In this document: piece by piece, positions 15,716 to 55,032 of the stretch
Layout of the letters: each line of letters begins with the position of its first letter
Position numbering within the stretch: the stretch's first letter is position 1
Origin: Draconibacterium sediminis
GTDB taxonomy: Bacteria > Bacteroidota > Bacteroidia > Bacteroidales > Prolixibacteraceae
DNA length: 64,000 nt
Reading direction: 5' to 3'
Assembly: GCF_000949475.1 (NCBI RefSeq)
Contig: NZ_JRHC01000005.1
Location: 434,001-498,000, forward strand
The notes under the pieces: generated by a model
Told to the model about the DNA's origin: nothing
The model's input: the letters and a program-made list of their open reading frames with translations, nothing else
Database searches by the model: none
Translations under genes and position numbers: made by a program

Positions 15716-17521
15716 ATGGATAATTTGAACTACTCGATAATCGGAAATTGCAAAAGTGCTGCATTAATTTCCGACAAGGGATCGATTGACTGGTGTTGTT
15801 TGCCCGATTTTAATTCGTCGTCGGTGTTTGCAAAAATACTCGACGAAAAGAAAGGTGGGAGCATGGAGTTCCTGGTAGACGATAGTTATGAGATTAAACA
15901 AACATACATAAGAACAACAAATATTGTTTCTACATTTTTTCAGAATGAAGATTCGTGTTTTGAGGTTGTTGATTTTATGCCTCGTTACAAAACAAGCGAG
16001 TTCGGGCATTTTACCCCTCCGGATATTATTCGGTATATAAAGTACAAATGGGGGGAACCTAAATTTAGGGTTCGATACAATCCAAAAGTGGAGTACGCCC
16101 GTTTTAATACAACAACGATAGCCGAGGAGGAGTACATCAAGTGTTACACCACCGAAGGAGATTACGACTCGTTGTACCTGTATACCGACCTCGATAAAGA
16201 AGATATTTTGCAGGAAAACGAAATTACCTTAACTGATAATGCGTTTATCCTTATTTCTTACGATCAGAAACTGCTGAATCAAACACTGGAACGGCAATAC
16301 CTTAAACTTCAGAAAACAAAAGTGTACTGGCTGGAATGGGCCAACAAACTAACGTCGTTTAAAAAATACAACAACGAAATTGTTAGAAGCGCGCTTGTTC
16401 TGAAGCTGCTGAGTTACGATAAATCGGGAGCCGTTTTGGCGGCTGCCACAACATCGTTGCCCGAAACAATTGGCGAGGAGCGAAACTGGGATTATCGTTT
16501 TTGCTGGATCCGCGATGCCTCGATGGTAATAAAGGTAATGTCGAGTTTGGGGCATCTGAATACCGTGAAGCGTTTTATGAAGTTCATTATCGATATTATT
16601 CCCGATAAGGATGAGAAGATACAGATCATGTACGGCATAAATCGCGAGAAAGTACTCGAGGAAGAGACTTTGGATCATTTAAGCGGTTATAAAAATTCGT
16701 ACCCGGTTCGTATTGGGAATGCGGCTTACATTCAAAAACAGAATGACATTTACGGAATTCTGATGGATGTTATTTTTCAGCAGTTTACCGAATTTAAGAT
16801 TTCGCTTGAAGACAGTGAGTCGCTCTGGACAATCGTGCGTAGCATCGTAAAAACGGTAGCCAATAACTGGACCAAACCGGATAAAGGAATTTGGGAGATT
16901 CGAACCGATGACCGCCACTTTACCTTCTCGAAGGTACTTTGTTGGGTAGCAATCGACAGGGCAGTAAAAATTGCCCGGTTTATTCACAAAGAAAGATATG
17001 TGGCGGAATGGCAACCACTCGCCGATACCATAAAAGAAGATATTTTCACCAATGCGTGGAACGAAGAAGTTGGCGCATTTACACAGTCGTACGGATCGAA
17101 AGATCTCGATGCTGCCACGCTGCTGATGCAGTCGTACGGTTTTATCGATGGAAAAGACGAACGTTTTGTAAAAACGGTGCTGGCCACCGAAAGGGAGCTT
17201 TGCGAAGATGGATTGATGTACCGGTATAAAAACGAGGATGATTTTGGTTTGCCAAGTTCGTCGTTTACTATTTGTACCTTCTGGCTCATTAATTCGTTGT
17301 ATGCAATTGGTCAGCGAAAAAGAGCAAAGAAATTATTCGATAAACTGCTAACGTACAGCAATCACGTGGGGCTTTTTAGCGAGGATATCGATTTTAAAAC
17401 CAAACGTTTGCTGGGGAACTTTCCTCAGGCCTACTCGCATTTGGCTTTAATCGAAACGGCTATAAACTTCTCGAAAGGGCAGACCACTGAGGATGAGCAG
17501 ATTCTGGACGCGATTCACTGA
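15716..17521 (+). CDS. glycoside hydrolase family 15 protein (glucoamylase/trehalase type)
   Basis: The 601-residue protein fits the GH15 family: an N-terminal beta-sandwich (IGNCKSAALISDKGSIDWCC) and an alpha/alpha-barrel with the catalytic segment RNWDYRFCWIRDAS, plus a late region ending in FPQAYSHLALIETA, where the second acid region and the family end are seen. No signal peptide is present, so it acts in the cytoplasm. Known cytosolic GH15 enzymes split alpha-glucans, and some split trehalose. Placement 64 bases after the trehalose synthase/phosphatase gene makes trehalose turnover an attractive but unproven role. Its TGA stop contributes the first base of a 21-nt repeat array. Confidence 0.9.
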   Translation: MDNLNYSIIGNCKSAALISDKGSIDWCCLPDFNSSSVFAKILDEKKGGSMEFLVDDSYEIKQTYIRTTNIVSTFFQNEDSCFEVVDFMPRYKTSEFGHFTPPDIIRYIKYKWGEPKFRVRYNPKVEYARFNTTTIAEEEYIKCYTTEGDYDSLYLYTDLDKEDILQENEITLTDNAFILISYDQKLLNQTLERQYLKLQKTKVYWLEWANKLTSFKKYNNEIVRSALVLKLLSYDKSGAVLAAATTSLPETIGEERNWDYRFCWIRDASMVIKVMSSLGHLNTVKRFMKFIIDIIPDKDEKIQIMYGINREKVLEEETLDHLSGYKNSYPVRIGNAAYIQKQNDIYGILMDVIFQQFTEFKISLEDSESLWTIVRSIVKTVANNWTKPDKGIWEIRTDDRHFTFSKVLCWVAIDRAVKIARFIHKERYVAEWQPLADTIKEDIFTNAWNEEVGAFTQSYGSKDLDAATLLMQSYGFIDGKDERFVKTVLATERELCEDGLMYRYKNEDDFGLPSSSFTICTFWLINSLYAIGQRKRAKKLFDKLLTYSNHVGLFSEDIDFKTKRLLGNFPQAYSHLALIETAINFSKGQTTEDEQILDAIH

Positions 17522-17772
17522 TTGTTTGACTTGAAATTGCCATTGCTTAAGTTGAAATCGTGATTGCTTCACTTGCAACGGTCGTTGCTTTAGTTGAAAC
17601 TGTCATTGTTTCAGCTAAAGCTGACATTGCTTCAGTTTAAGTGCTTGTTGCTTTGGTCGCAGCGCTCGTTGCTTTAGTTAAAGTGCTTGTTGCTTTAGTT
17701 GAAGCGTTTATTGTTTGAGGTGAAGCTCTTATTGCTTCAGTTGAAATACTTATTGTTTGATTAAACGTTAGA
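17521..17772. repeat. array of twelve 21-nt units
   Basis: Units begin at 17521 and then every 21 bases to 17752 with no insertion or deletion. The consensus is RTTGYTTYAGTTGAA followed by six variable bases. The conserved part is an imperfect dyad (GCTTCA-GT-TGAAGC in the best copies), so each unit could be a binding site or a small RNA hairpin. In the frame of the GH15 gene the units read as Leu-rich heptads but contain TGA and TAG codons, so they are not coding. The array fills the gap between the converging GH15 and MarR genes. It is not CRISPR-like, because conserved and variable parts are too short. Confidence 0.9.
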
Positions 17773-36856: not shown

Positions 36857-37061
36857 CCGGGCAAGCATTAAACTAAAGTTTACGAGCCAAATTCTTCCCG
36901 GCCGGCGTTTATACAAAAGTTTACGCTTCAAAAACTTTCCGGCCTGCGTTTAAAAGTAAGTTTAAAGGCTAAAAACTTGCTGCGCAAGGTTTGAACTAAA
37001 GTTTAACGCATGAAATCTTGCCGGCCGGCATTTAAGCACACTTTTAAGCCTCGGAAATGTT
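36857..37061. repeat. array of five 41-nt units
   Basis: Units begin at 36857, 36898, 36939, 36980 and 37021 with exact 41-base spacing. Each starts with a GC-rich word (best form CCGGCCGGCG), continues with TTTA, then AAAGTTTA-C in the middle, and ends with a variable A/T-rich part. The copies are diverged in sequence but not in length. The array lies in the gap between converging genes (DsbD-alpha and the M16 protease). There is no open frame across it. Confidence 0.8.
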
Positions 37062-47432: not shown

Positions 47433-47766
47433 CAGCTGCAAGTTACAAGTATCTAGCTGCGAGACGTGAGTTACGAGTATCTTCAAGTATCCGAAATTCA
47501 AGATCAAGCATCCAGCACACTGTACACTTTCAATTCAACAATTTATCAGTTTGTCAATCTTTTATCAAGAGAAGTAAACCACAGAGATTCGCAGAGAAGT
47601 CACGGAGTTGCATCGAGAATCGAGAATCCAGGATCAAGTATTCAGCTGCGAGCCACTAGCCACTAGCTACGAGTGTGTGAAATCAAGTATCGTTGACTAT
47701 CCAGCATCCAGTATCCAGAATCACTCCTTCAATCCCTCAGTTACTCAATCCCTCAGTAACTCATTC
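47433..47766. repeat. seven-nucleotide-phased degenerate word region
   Basis: The gap of 410 bases between converging smpB and the exonuclease gene is made of short words in 7-base phase. At 47433-47481 seven words follow without gaps (CAGCTGC, AAGTTAC, AAGTATC, TAGCTGC, GAGACGT, GAGTTAC, GAGTATC). At 47643-47691 there is a second string (CAGCTGC, GAGCCAC, TAGCCAC, TAGCTAC, GAGTGTG ...), and at 47702-47722 CAGCATC, CAGTATC, CAGAATC. The area 47575-47612 holds a CACAGAG-type word group. The part 47357-47432 has no recognised feature. No gene is seen. Confidence 0.75.
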
Positions 47767-54091: not shown

Positions 54092-54133
54092 GATTCTGGA
54101 TACTGGATACTCGTAACTCGCGGCTCGCAGCTC
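54092..54133. repeat. six gapless seven-base words, pattern GNNNCTS
   Basis: GATTCTG, GATACTG, GATACTC, GTAACTC, GCGGCTC and GCAGCTC follow without gaps. Read on the other strand they are the same word family (GAGCTGC, GAGTTAC, GAGTATC, CAGTATC, CAGAATC) seen at 47433-47722. The string lies just before the DUF4924 gene. Confidence 0.8.
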
Positions 54134-54152: not shown

Positions 54153-54692
54153 ATGCTTGTAGCAAAACAAAAACGAAAAGAGAATATTGCCGAATACATC
54201 TTGTATTTGTATCAAATTGAAGACATGATCAGGGCTTTTAAACTGGACATGGAGCTTATCGAGGAACGTTTGGTAGCCAATTACAAAGCCGATGATAAAA
54301 CCAAAGCTGCCATAACTGATTGGTATGCCAATTTGGTGCTGATGATGGATAAAGAACAAATCAGGGAGAAAGGGCATTTTCAGTTTCTTGACAACCTGGT
54401 TTCGGATGTAAACGATTTTCATTTAAAGCTGATGGAAACCTCGAAAGACGGTATGTACGTGCAAACCTACAAAACTGTTGCGGGGCTGGTATCGGAGTTG
54501 AAAGAGAAAAACCCGGAAGCCAAAAATGATGTAGACCTGGGAATTACCGCTGTTTACGGTTTTCTGCTGCTTAAAATGCAACAAAAAGATATTTCGATTG
54601 ATACCCTGGAGGCCATAAAACGTATTAGCAAATGGTTGGGCGATTTATCGAAACTATACCGCGATTTCGAAAACGGTGATTTTGATTTCTAA
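54153..54692 (+). CDS. DUF4924 family protein
   Basis: The 179-residue all-helical protein belongs to the Bacteroidetes family DUF4924: opening LVAKQKRKENIAEYILYLYQIEDMIRA, central DWYANLVLMMDKEQ, and GITAVYGFLLLKMQ near the end. The function is unknown. It has no signal or membrane segment. It follows the Hsp15-like gene in the same direction, with the heptamer word string between them, and converges on the DCC gene across the mirrored array. Confidence 0.85.
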   Translation: MLVAKQKRKENIAEYILYLYQIEDMIRAFKLDMELIEERLVANYKADDKTKAAITDWYANLVLMMDKEQIREKGHFQFLDNLVSDVNDFHLKLMETSKDGMYVQTYKTVAGLVSELKEKNPEAKNDVDLGITAVYGFLLLKMQQKDISIDTLEAIKRISKWLGDLSKLYRDFENGDFDF

Positions 54693-54771
54693 ATAATCTT
54701 TACTTCAATTCCCCGAAACACAGTAACCAATCCCTTTCTATTTTCAGATACTCCTGCTATAAAAATAGTGC

Positions 54772-54998
54772 TGCGAGCAGGTAAAAATGCCTTGCGAGTA
54801 ATTAATAAAGGCGTGCGAGCATTAGATAATGGAATGCGAGCAACAAAAAAACACATGCGAGCTACTAATAAACAGGTGCGAGCTATACTCGCATGGCAAT
54901 AATTCTTACTCGCACATCTATATTTATAGCTCGCACTATATTAAAAATAGCTCGCACGTAAATATTAGTAGCTCGCACTACGATATTATATACTCGCA
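54772..54998. repeat. mirrored array: six TGCGAG then six CTCGCA boxes, all 21 nt apart
   Basis: TGCGAG starts at 54772, 54793, 54814, 54835, 54856 and 54877. CTCGCA starts at 54888, 54909, 54930, 54951, 54972 and 54993. Every step within a half is 21 bases, and each box mirrors its partner about one axis at 54885 (centre TGCGAG-CTATA-CTCGCA). Between boxes lies variable A/T-rich DNA, often with TAATA. The gap between converging genes has no gene; an open frame across it is a by-product of the repeat. Confidence 0.95.
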
Positions 54999-55032
54999 GG
55001 GTAATATTAAATGCAGGGAAGGGGTTTATCCA

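Follow-up and report, generated by a model that had tools for sequence, protein, structure and literature searches.

We have found that an array of short boxes in the genome of Draconibacterium sediminis belongs to a class of arrays repeated every two turns of the double helix, many of which adjoin the genes of one uncharacterised protein family. The array lies in a stretch of 64,000 nucleotides (the window, positions 434,001–498,000 of contig NZ_JRHC01000005.1). Comparison with related genomes indicates that it is a real DNA element under constraint. The phased arrays and the protein family appear to belong together as parts of a single system, which occurs in several bacteroidotal lineages. 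We consider it probable that the array is a DNA platform which would be read by a dedicated protein of 236 amino acids from this PQLLE-like family, the copy in the window being a stand-alone site.

The array in the window

The array is found in a gap between two converging genes. The features of this region, and a second array in the same window, are as follows:

54153–54692, plus strand: DUF4924 gene, converging left neighbour
54751–54771, plus strand: left capping unit, CTCCTG and an A/T segment, a divergent seventh site
54772–54882, plus strand: left half of the array, with a TGCGAG box every 21 bp, six in all (box search and shuffles)
54883–54887, no strand: array centre CTATA, 5 nt between the halves
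54888–54998, minus strand: right half of the array, with a CTCGCA box every 21 bp, six in all
54999–55019, minus strand: right capping unit, TCCCTG and an A/T segment
55033–55446, minus strand: DCC1-like thiol-disulfide oxidoreductase gene, converging right neighbour
17521–17758, plus strand: second array, 12 ATTGCTT-type boxes in direct orientation, spaced by exactly 21 bp

The TGCGAG boxes start at positions 54772, 54793, 54814, 54835, 54856 and 54877, the CTCGCA boxes at 54888, 54909, 54930, 54951, 54972 and 54993. All 12 boxes between 54772 and 54998 are perfect, their steps are exactly 21 bp and the two halves mirror each other about position 54885: the coordinates given in a preliminary description of this DNA were reproduced. 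In the window 12 places match a pattern of two boxes 21 bp apart when at most one mismatch is allowed, and 10 of these are exact matches within the array. In 100 shuffled versions of the window the mean was 0.11 matches and the largest number was 2.

The preliminary description did not include the capping units: one divergent unit ends each half. They mirror each other in many arrays, as the terminal inverted repeats of a MITE might, but they look like divergent units of the array. In the 24 arrays with this word described below, CCTG is found within the first seven bases of the terminal unit in 27 of 48 arms (counted by hand).

The filler between boxes had been described as variable. Variable it is, but it is not free, since each box is accompanied by an A/T segment about one helical turn away. 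In 165 units position 15 of the unit is A in 95% of cases and positions 12–14 have over 90% A/T; these positions lie about 10.5 bp from the centre of the box. The profile is taken from 33 of the 48 arms; the other 15, in which a box is weak, were set aside.

The second array of the window is also new with respect to the preliminary description. Its first base falls at the stop codon of a GH15-like gene, and a converging MarR-like gene follows it; its word differs from TGCGAG and its geometry is alike.

Arrays with the same word in the genus Draconibacterium

We have found 24 mirrored TGCGAG arrays in 11 of the 37 Draconibacterium genomes, and none in the 103 other genomes of the Prolixibacteraceae which were searched. 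The preliminary description had made its case depend on comparable arrays in related genomes: they exist, and both their step and their centre are conserved. The centre has 5 nt in all 24 arrays, a length required by the search pattern; places with three boxes, searched with no such requirement, all fall inside these same arrays.

The mirror design recurs at separate chromosomal sites: eight arrays are found at site A, to which the array of the window belongs, seven at site B, eight at site C and a single one at a fourth site. No genome has more than three arrays with this word. The number of units varies from one array to another, and decayed remnants with two boxes occur: the genome of the window has arrays at sites A and C, and its site B has collapsed to a remnant of two boxes. 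The presence of orthologous sites with related fillers indicates that TGCGAG arrays are mostly inherited, not freshly moved.

Site A was viewed in 21 genomes. The array is present in one of them, that of the window, and a decayed remnant is found in G029. In eight genomes the DCC coding sequence comes directly after the stop codon of the DUF4924 gene (judged by eye), and the other 11 have different arrangements in which no array was seen. The seven further site-A arrays come from loci outside this view. In each of the seven site-B loci (L150, L153, L160, L162, L167, L168 and L171; the gene families were tested on L153 only) the array has a MutS-like gene on one side and the topoisomerase IV gene pair on the other. 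The three arrays of one complete genome are placed in one replichore, at neither the origin nor the terminus, as judged from sampled GC skew.

A link with converging genes had also been proposed, and it holds in part: according to our own reading of the ORF lists 16 of the 24 arrays lie between converging genes, eight between co-directional genes and none between divergent ones, but these arrays represent about four independent sites.

Conservation of the boxes

In orthologous arrays the boxes change two to five times more slowly than the fillers. The differences in boxes and fillers are 0.069 and 0.317 at site A (6 of 8 arrays), 0.161 and 0.394 at site B (6 of 7) and 0.097 and 0.418 at site C (5 of 8). 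The comparison includes 17 of the 24 arrays: six with indels or with weak or short arms were left out, as well as the single array of the fourth site. Selection on the boxes, which had been deduced from one array, is borne out by these figures. The constraint applies to stand-alone arrays as well, since sites A and B have no adjoining partner gene of the kind described in the next section.

A protein family associated with the arrays

At site C all eight arrays begin at the stop codon of a gene which codes for a protein of 236 amino acids (235 in one case), or within a few bases of it. The neighbours of this gene differ from one species to another. Its protein has no match among Pfam families and is predicted to be all-helical. 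The DUF4924 gene which precedes the array of the window does not belong to this family. Relatives of the protein are found in 22 of the 37 Draconibacterium genomes, with up to nine matches per genome. In wider samples the family profile matches 18 of 393 genomes of the order (12 genera, our own genome included) and only our own genome among 395 sampled across the phylum.

The set of family genes comprises 49 from the genus and 26 from the order, after dropping a locus which lacked a start and a 29-aa fragment. As downstream array we take at least five matching 7-mers at steps of 20–22 bp, within 420 bp past the stop codon. Such arrays are present in 62 of the 75 genes, 45 of 49 in the genus and 17 of 26 in the order; the remaining four and nine genes have no array with at least five boxes. 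Control spacings of 16–18 or 25–27 bp gave no array downstream of any of the 75 genes, and shuffled downstream sequences gave none either (0/75). An upstream array is found in one of 70 family genes. Ordinary ORFs of at least 150 aa have a downstream array in 6 of 519 cases in genome G000, in 6 of 191 in G005 and in none of 233 in G046, a Prolixibacteraceae genome with no family gene by profile. The 62 gene-linked arrays are divided equally: 31 are mirrored and 31 have direct boxes only.

No convincing DNA-binding family was found for these proteins in Pfam (41 members scanned), NCBIfam, PADLOC or PHROGs. There are weak matches to a ComEA-like DNA-binding model (1 of 41 members, E = 0.0046) and to a PHROG of unknown function (8 of 41 members, best E = 1.9e-4). 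The Pfam scans of the 41 members show no transposase, Rep, ParB, ParR or TubR families. An HUH-like triplet is found in 1 of 76 family proteins, and the family alignment (A1) has no invariant or nearly invariant histidine. A tblastn search of a collection of 72,556 plasmid records, with one family member as query, gave no match. The proteins are acidic on average, with a net charge of −9.4 in 49 of them; only their last 50 residues are basic (+4.7). The NCBIfam model PQLLE (NF052641) matches 31 of the 41 members, all of them below its cut-off (best 37.1 bits, as against 80): by sequence the family is a distant relative of PQLLE, not a member of it.

Box words and protein sequences

Family genes have different box words: TGCGAG, TGCAGGA, AACAGGA, TGTAGGA, TTGGCAA, GATGGGG, GGGAGAAC, GGTGATAAC, ACGAGCAA and others. 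In the 62 arrays, in spite of their many words, the mean A/T content peaks 12–16 bases past the start of the word.

The distance between words is correlated with the distance between proteins, with r = 0.54 for the tail and 0.53 for the core; the partial correlations are 0.31 for the tail given the core and 0.27 for the core given the tail. With 44 less related proteins the values are 0.41 for the tail and 0.42 for the core (partials 0.25 and 0.27). None of 2000 permutations reached these correlations, which take no account of shared descent. Thus in the whole family core and tail are equally good predictors of the word. In a subgroup of nine proteins, with cores less than 30% different from that of L264, the word is correlated with the tail (r = 0.66, taking the last 25 alignment positions) and not with the core (r = 0.01). 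Tails of type KNKHRSSG go with the word GGGAGAAC, KNKHKK with GGTGATAAC and RNK(T/N)Y with TGTAGGA. The word GGTGATAAC goes as well with protein L253, whose core is more distant and whose tail is KNKHKRRK. Three other proteins (L244, L259 and L267) resemble this subgroup in the alignment and have no array past the threshold, so that they are uninformative. Joint gene conversion of the adjoining tail and array could also tie the word to the tail.

Stand-alone arrays

Arrays with the word of a family gene are also found away from it. In the genome of the window GGGAGAAC is present in a gene-linked array on C14 and in two stand-alone arrays on C1, which lie near hydF and a macro-domain gene. Copies with this word have a leader of some 50 bp in common (judged by eye). 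Of the 15 genomes viewed at the hydF site, six have an array there, and several of those with an empty site show a clean junction; the macro site is filled in 5 of 18. Eight genomes have a GGGAGAAC array at one of these sites; among the genes examined, which do not include a few partial or broken copies, a family gene of the GGGAGAAC type is present in only two of them, G000 and G034, and absent in six.

Stand-alone TGCGAG arrays are found in seven of the eight genomes with a TGCGAG-type protein and in three of the 29 which lack it (Fisher 8.5e-5, uncorrected for descent or genome completeness). The three exceptions, G004, G007 and G013, count against a strict dependence of the array on the gene. 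The gene tree, with support values of 54–91 around G012, is compatible both with loss and with late gain. Empty sites exist, and no clear target-site duplication was seen by eye at the array sites.

A putative reader protein

The fact that many arrays adjoin the genes of one family, with a word that changes from gene to gene, suggests a dedicated reader protein. The platform would consist of 12 core sites and two divergent end sites, each with a six-base box followed by an A/T-rich segment one turn away, arranged in two inward-pointing halves. With a repeat every two helical turns all sites would face one side of the helix. The reader would be the 236-aa all-helical protein whose gene on C13 is followed, right at the stop codon, by an array of the same word; the choice of word would probably depend in part on the basic C-terminal tail. 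The copy in the window would be a stand-alone site for the protein encoded on C13, placed where two genes converge. In the most likely picture this protein would coat or bridge its one to three arrays and give a sequence-addressed nucleoprotein node, which might benefit the cell; insulation would be another possible role. A platform for a DNA-binding protein had been one of several suggestions of the preliminary description; the protein-linked arrays make it the best reading. Against a partner of this kind stand the arrays with other words which have no adjoining family gene, as well as those beside genes of the DUF6261 and AraC-like kinds. The acidic average charge of the proteins, their lack of a convincing DNA-binding family match, the 13 family genes with no array and the genomes which have arrays but no gene of the corresponding type also count against it.

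Should the protein indeed read the array, the family would provide orthogonal DNA-address modules of natural origin, whose cores are similar and whose tails differ, and would offer a new handle on chromosome organisation or parasitism in Bacteroidota. A broader proposal, which we make tentatively as a minority possibility, is a chromosome-addressing system of Bacteroidota: helical proteins would gather their private arrays, each by a word of six to eight bases, into one node. Words would switch with the protein tail, and several mutually blind systems would share a genome, like orthogonal centromeres.

The arrays might instead be mobile, which we consider unlikely. Gene and array would then form a domesticated or selfish element and the stand-alone arrays would be its non-autonomous copies, as REPINs are to RAYT, with boxes kept as sites for the mobilising protein. 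The hydF and macro sites, where some close species have an array and others have none, agree with it, and so do the eight genomes in which DCC directly follows DUF4924, the leader common to copies of one word and the changing neighbours of the site-C gene. However TGCGAG arrays are few in each genome and stay at orthologous sites with related fillers, the proteins show neither a transposase motif nor a conserved histidine, target-site duplications are not clear, and the gene tree can be explained by loss or late gain. Slippage could also give tandem repeats which drift as passive minisatellites with no function. The unrelated words found elsewhere in the genus, the varying unit numbers and the two-box remnants would fit, but not the slow change of the boxes, the mirror design at separate sites or the linkage to a protein family in 45 of 49 genes of the genus: it is the least probable of all the explanations.

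Two other readings are both very unlikely. One is an intrinsic element of DNA shape or topology, either a phased bend or a gyrase or replication feature, which would need no dedicated protein. It would explain the two-turn phasing with A/T-rich fillers, and the position of site B upstream of the topoisomerase IV gene pair; but it would neither need sequence-specific boxes nor make them follow a protein family, and the three arrays of the complete genome are at neither origin nor terminus. A phased bend had been proposed in the preliminary description; bending by A-tracts has weak support at best, as they are barely in excess: they are present in 65% of the fillers and in 57% after shuffling. 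The other, a shade less likely, is an RNA hairpin or a double terminator made by transcripts which enter the gap. The predicted fold of either strand of the window array is much stronger than that of shuffled sequence (z = −7.3 and −8.0), the minus strand has one terminator-like match at the array centre (expected number 0.6), and family arrays follow a gene end. But where every box of both arms could be recognised, in 13 arrays, mirrored fillers resemble each other no more than non-mirrored ones do (0.442 and 0.456, permutation p = 0.86), and a compensating change on the other arm accompanies only 3 of 41 changed box positions. These two results speak against the hairpin, and neither it nor the double terminator, both suggested previously, is supported. 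The strong predicted fold is best taken as a by-product of the mirror design. The best Rfam match of the array has 26 bits, as against a gathering score of 107, and with no sign of covarying pairs the array was rejected as a structured RNA. Half of the gene-linked arrays have no inverse half, and a perfect-stem terminator already stands ahead of the array in 7 of the 62 loci.

Comparison with known repeats

Plasmid iterons and partition centromeres (Rep-iteron, ParR-parC) are helically phased repeats, bound by a protein which is encoded alongside. The arrays are also helically phased and lie beside a gene, whose protein would bind them. They differ by being chromosomal and by having different words for proteins with similar cores. 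This assignment was rejected: none of the corresponding protein families appears in the 41 members scanned, and the one member used as query has no match in the plasmid records.

RAYTs are HUH-type tyrosine transposases which act on hairpins, according to the parts of the reports available to us (PMC3116915, PMC8266576). The same parts describe a gene placed beside its own repeat cluster, with further extragenic copies elsewhere, and several repeat classes per genome with one gene each; gene and repeats are thought to co-evolve (PMC3116915, PMC8266576). Here too repeats flank a gene and have copies elsewhere: site C with sites A and B, the gene-linked GGGAGAAC array with its two stand-alone ones. 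Unlike RAYTs, the protein is predicted all-helical and lacks HUH, and the repeats are short boxes phased at two turns with no selected hairpin pairing. Membership was rejected on the rarity of the HUH triplet, the absence of transposase families and the few compensated box changes.

The BrickBuilt MITE of Porphyromonas gingivalis is intergenic, with a 23-nt unit, no spacer and ends like those of the IS5 family (PMC4596501). It shares with our arrays the intergenic position, a unit near two turns and a host among Bacteroidetes; in contrast with the gene-linked arrays, the part of this report available to us describes no partner gene (PMC4596501). The arrays do not belong to it: their unit is 21 nt with a variable filler, and GAGACC-type ends are absent from the array sequence. 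TAACTGA heptamers are contiguous 7-nt direct repeats, found in their main genome mostly before start codons (PMC4679880). They are also short words in intergenic DNA and occur in a few Bacteroidetes; unlike the arrays they have no 21-bp phasing described in the part of the source at hand (PMC4679880).

In the literature searched we found no description of box arrays spaced by two turns, and this helix-spaced class in Bacteroidota is apparently undescribed. It shares features with REPIN/RAYT and with iterons, but the family fails their protein tests. No known kind which we tested fits both the protein and the array. A two-part system would also account for an intergenic repeat with no description found.

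Other phased arrays and repeats

The PQLLE model has matches in 15 of the 395 genomes of the phylum. They form a set of 30 loci, one of which is the site-C gene itself and was left out. Of the remaining 29, 13 have an array of at least five boxes within 450 bp, which is upstream in ten cases and downstream in three; most of the matches in the whole set are below the cut-off, four loci have in-frame stops (two among the 13), some of the upstream chains are over 300 bp away, and the counts are given with no baseline from those genomes. Above the cut-off the proportion is 6 of 9. Control tests at these loci gave no array (0/60). The true PQLLE member of our own genome, L363, has no array of at least five boxes. 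The PQLLE family is named in no paper of the literature searched. Among its weak matches in other Bacteroidota, L390 and L391 have downstream arrays of 14 and 8 boxes and L374 an upstream array of 10.

Two other kinds of gene are flanked by arrays. In a sample of D. orientale two of three DUF6261 genes have an upstream array of six boxes, and the third has four boxes. Arrays with a period of 42 bp are found just upstream of DUF6261 genes of this species in L209 (9126–9342) and L210 (3851–4067). DUF6261 and the 236-aa family have no detectable homology. An AraC-like gene has an upstream array in both of its copies; this gene codes for 152 aa and has phased arrays on both sides in two species (L212, 1587–1803; L418, 15144–15318).

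Scans of unselected stretches gave five arrays in 800 kb of G000, nine in 300 kb of G005, two in the window and none in 400 kb of G046. Control periods in the same scans gave one match, in G046. Among the neighbouring genes listed for these arrays we recognised no member of the 236-aa family.

The window also has other repeats. In another gap between converging genes, at positions 36868–36978, there is a repeat with a period of 41 bp, about four helical turns, with 2.7 copies. Runs of ACTCG / TACGAG-type repeats with short steps, at 54104–54130 and about 47437–47673, belong to a different class, which recurs elsewhere in the genome of the window.
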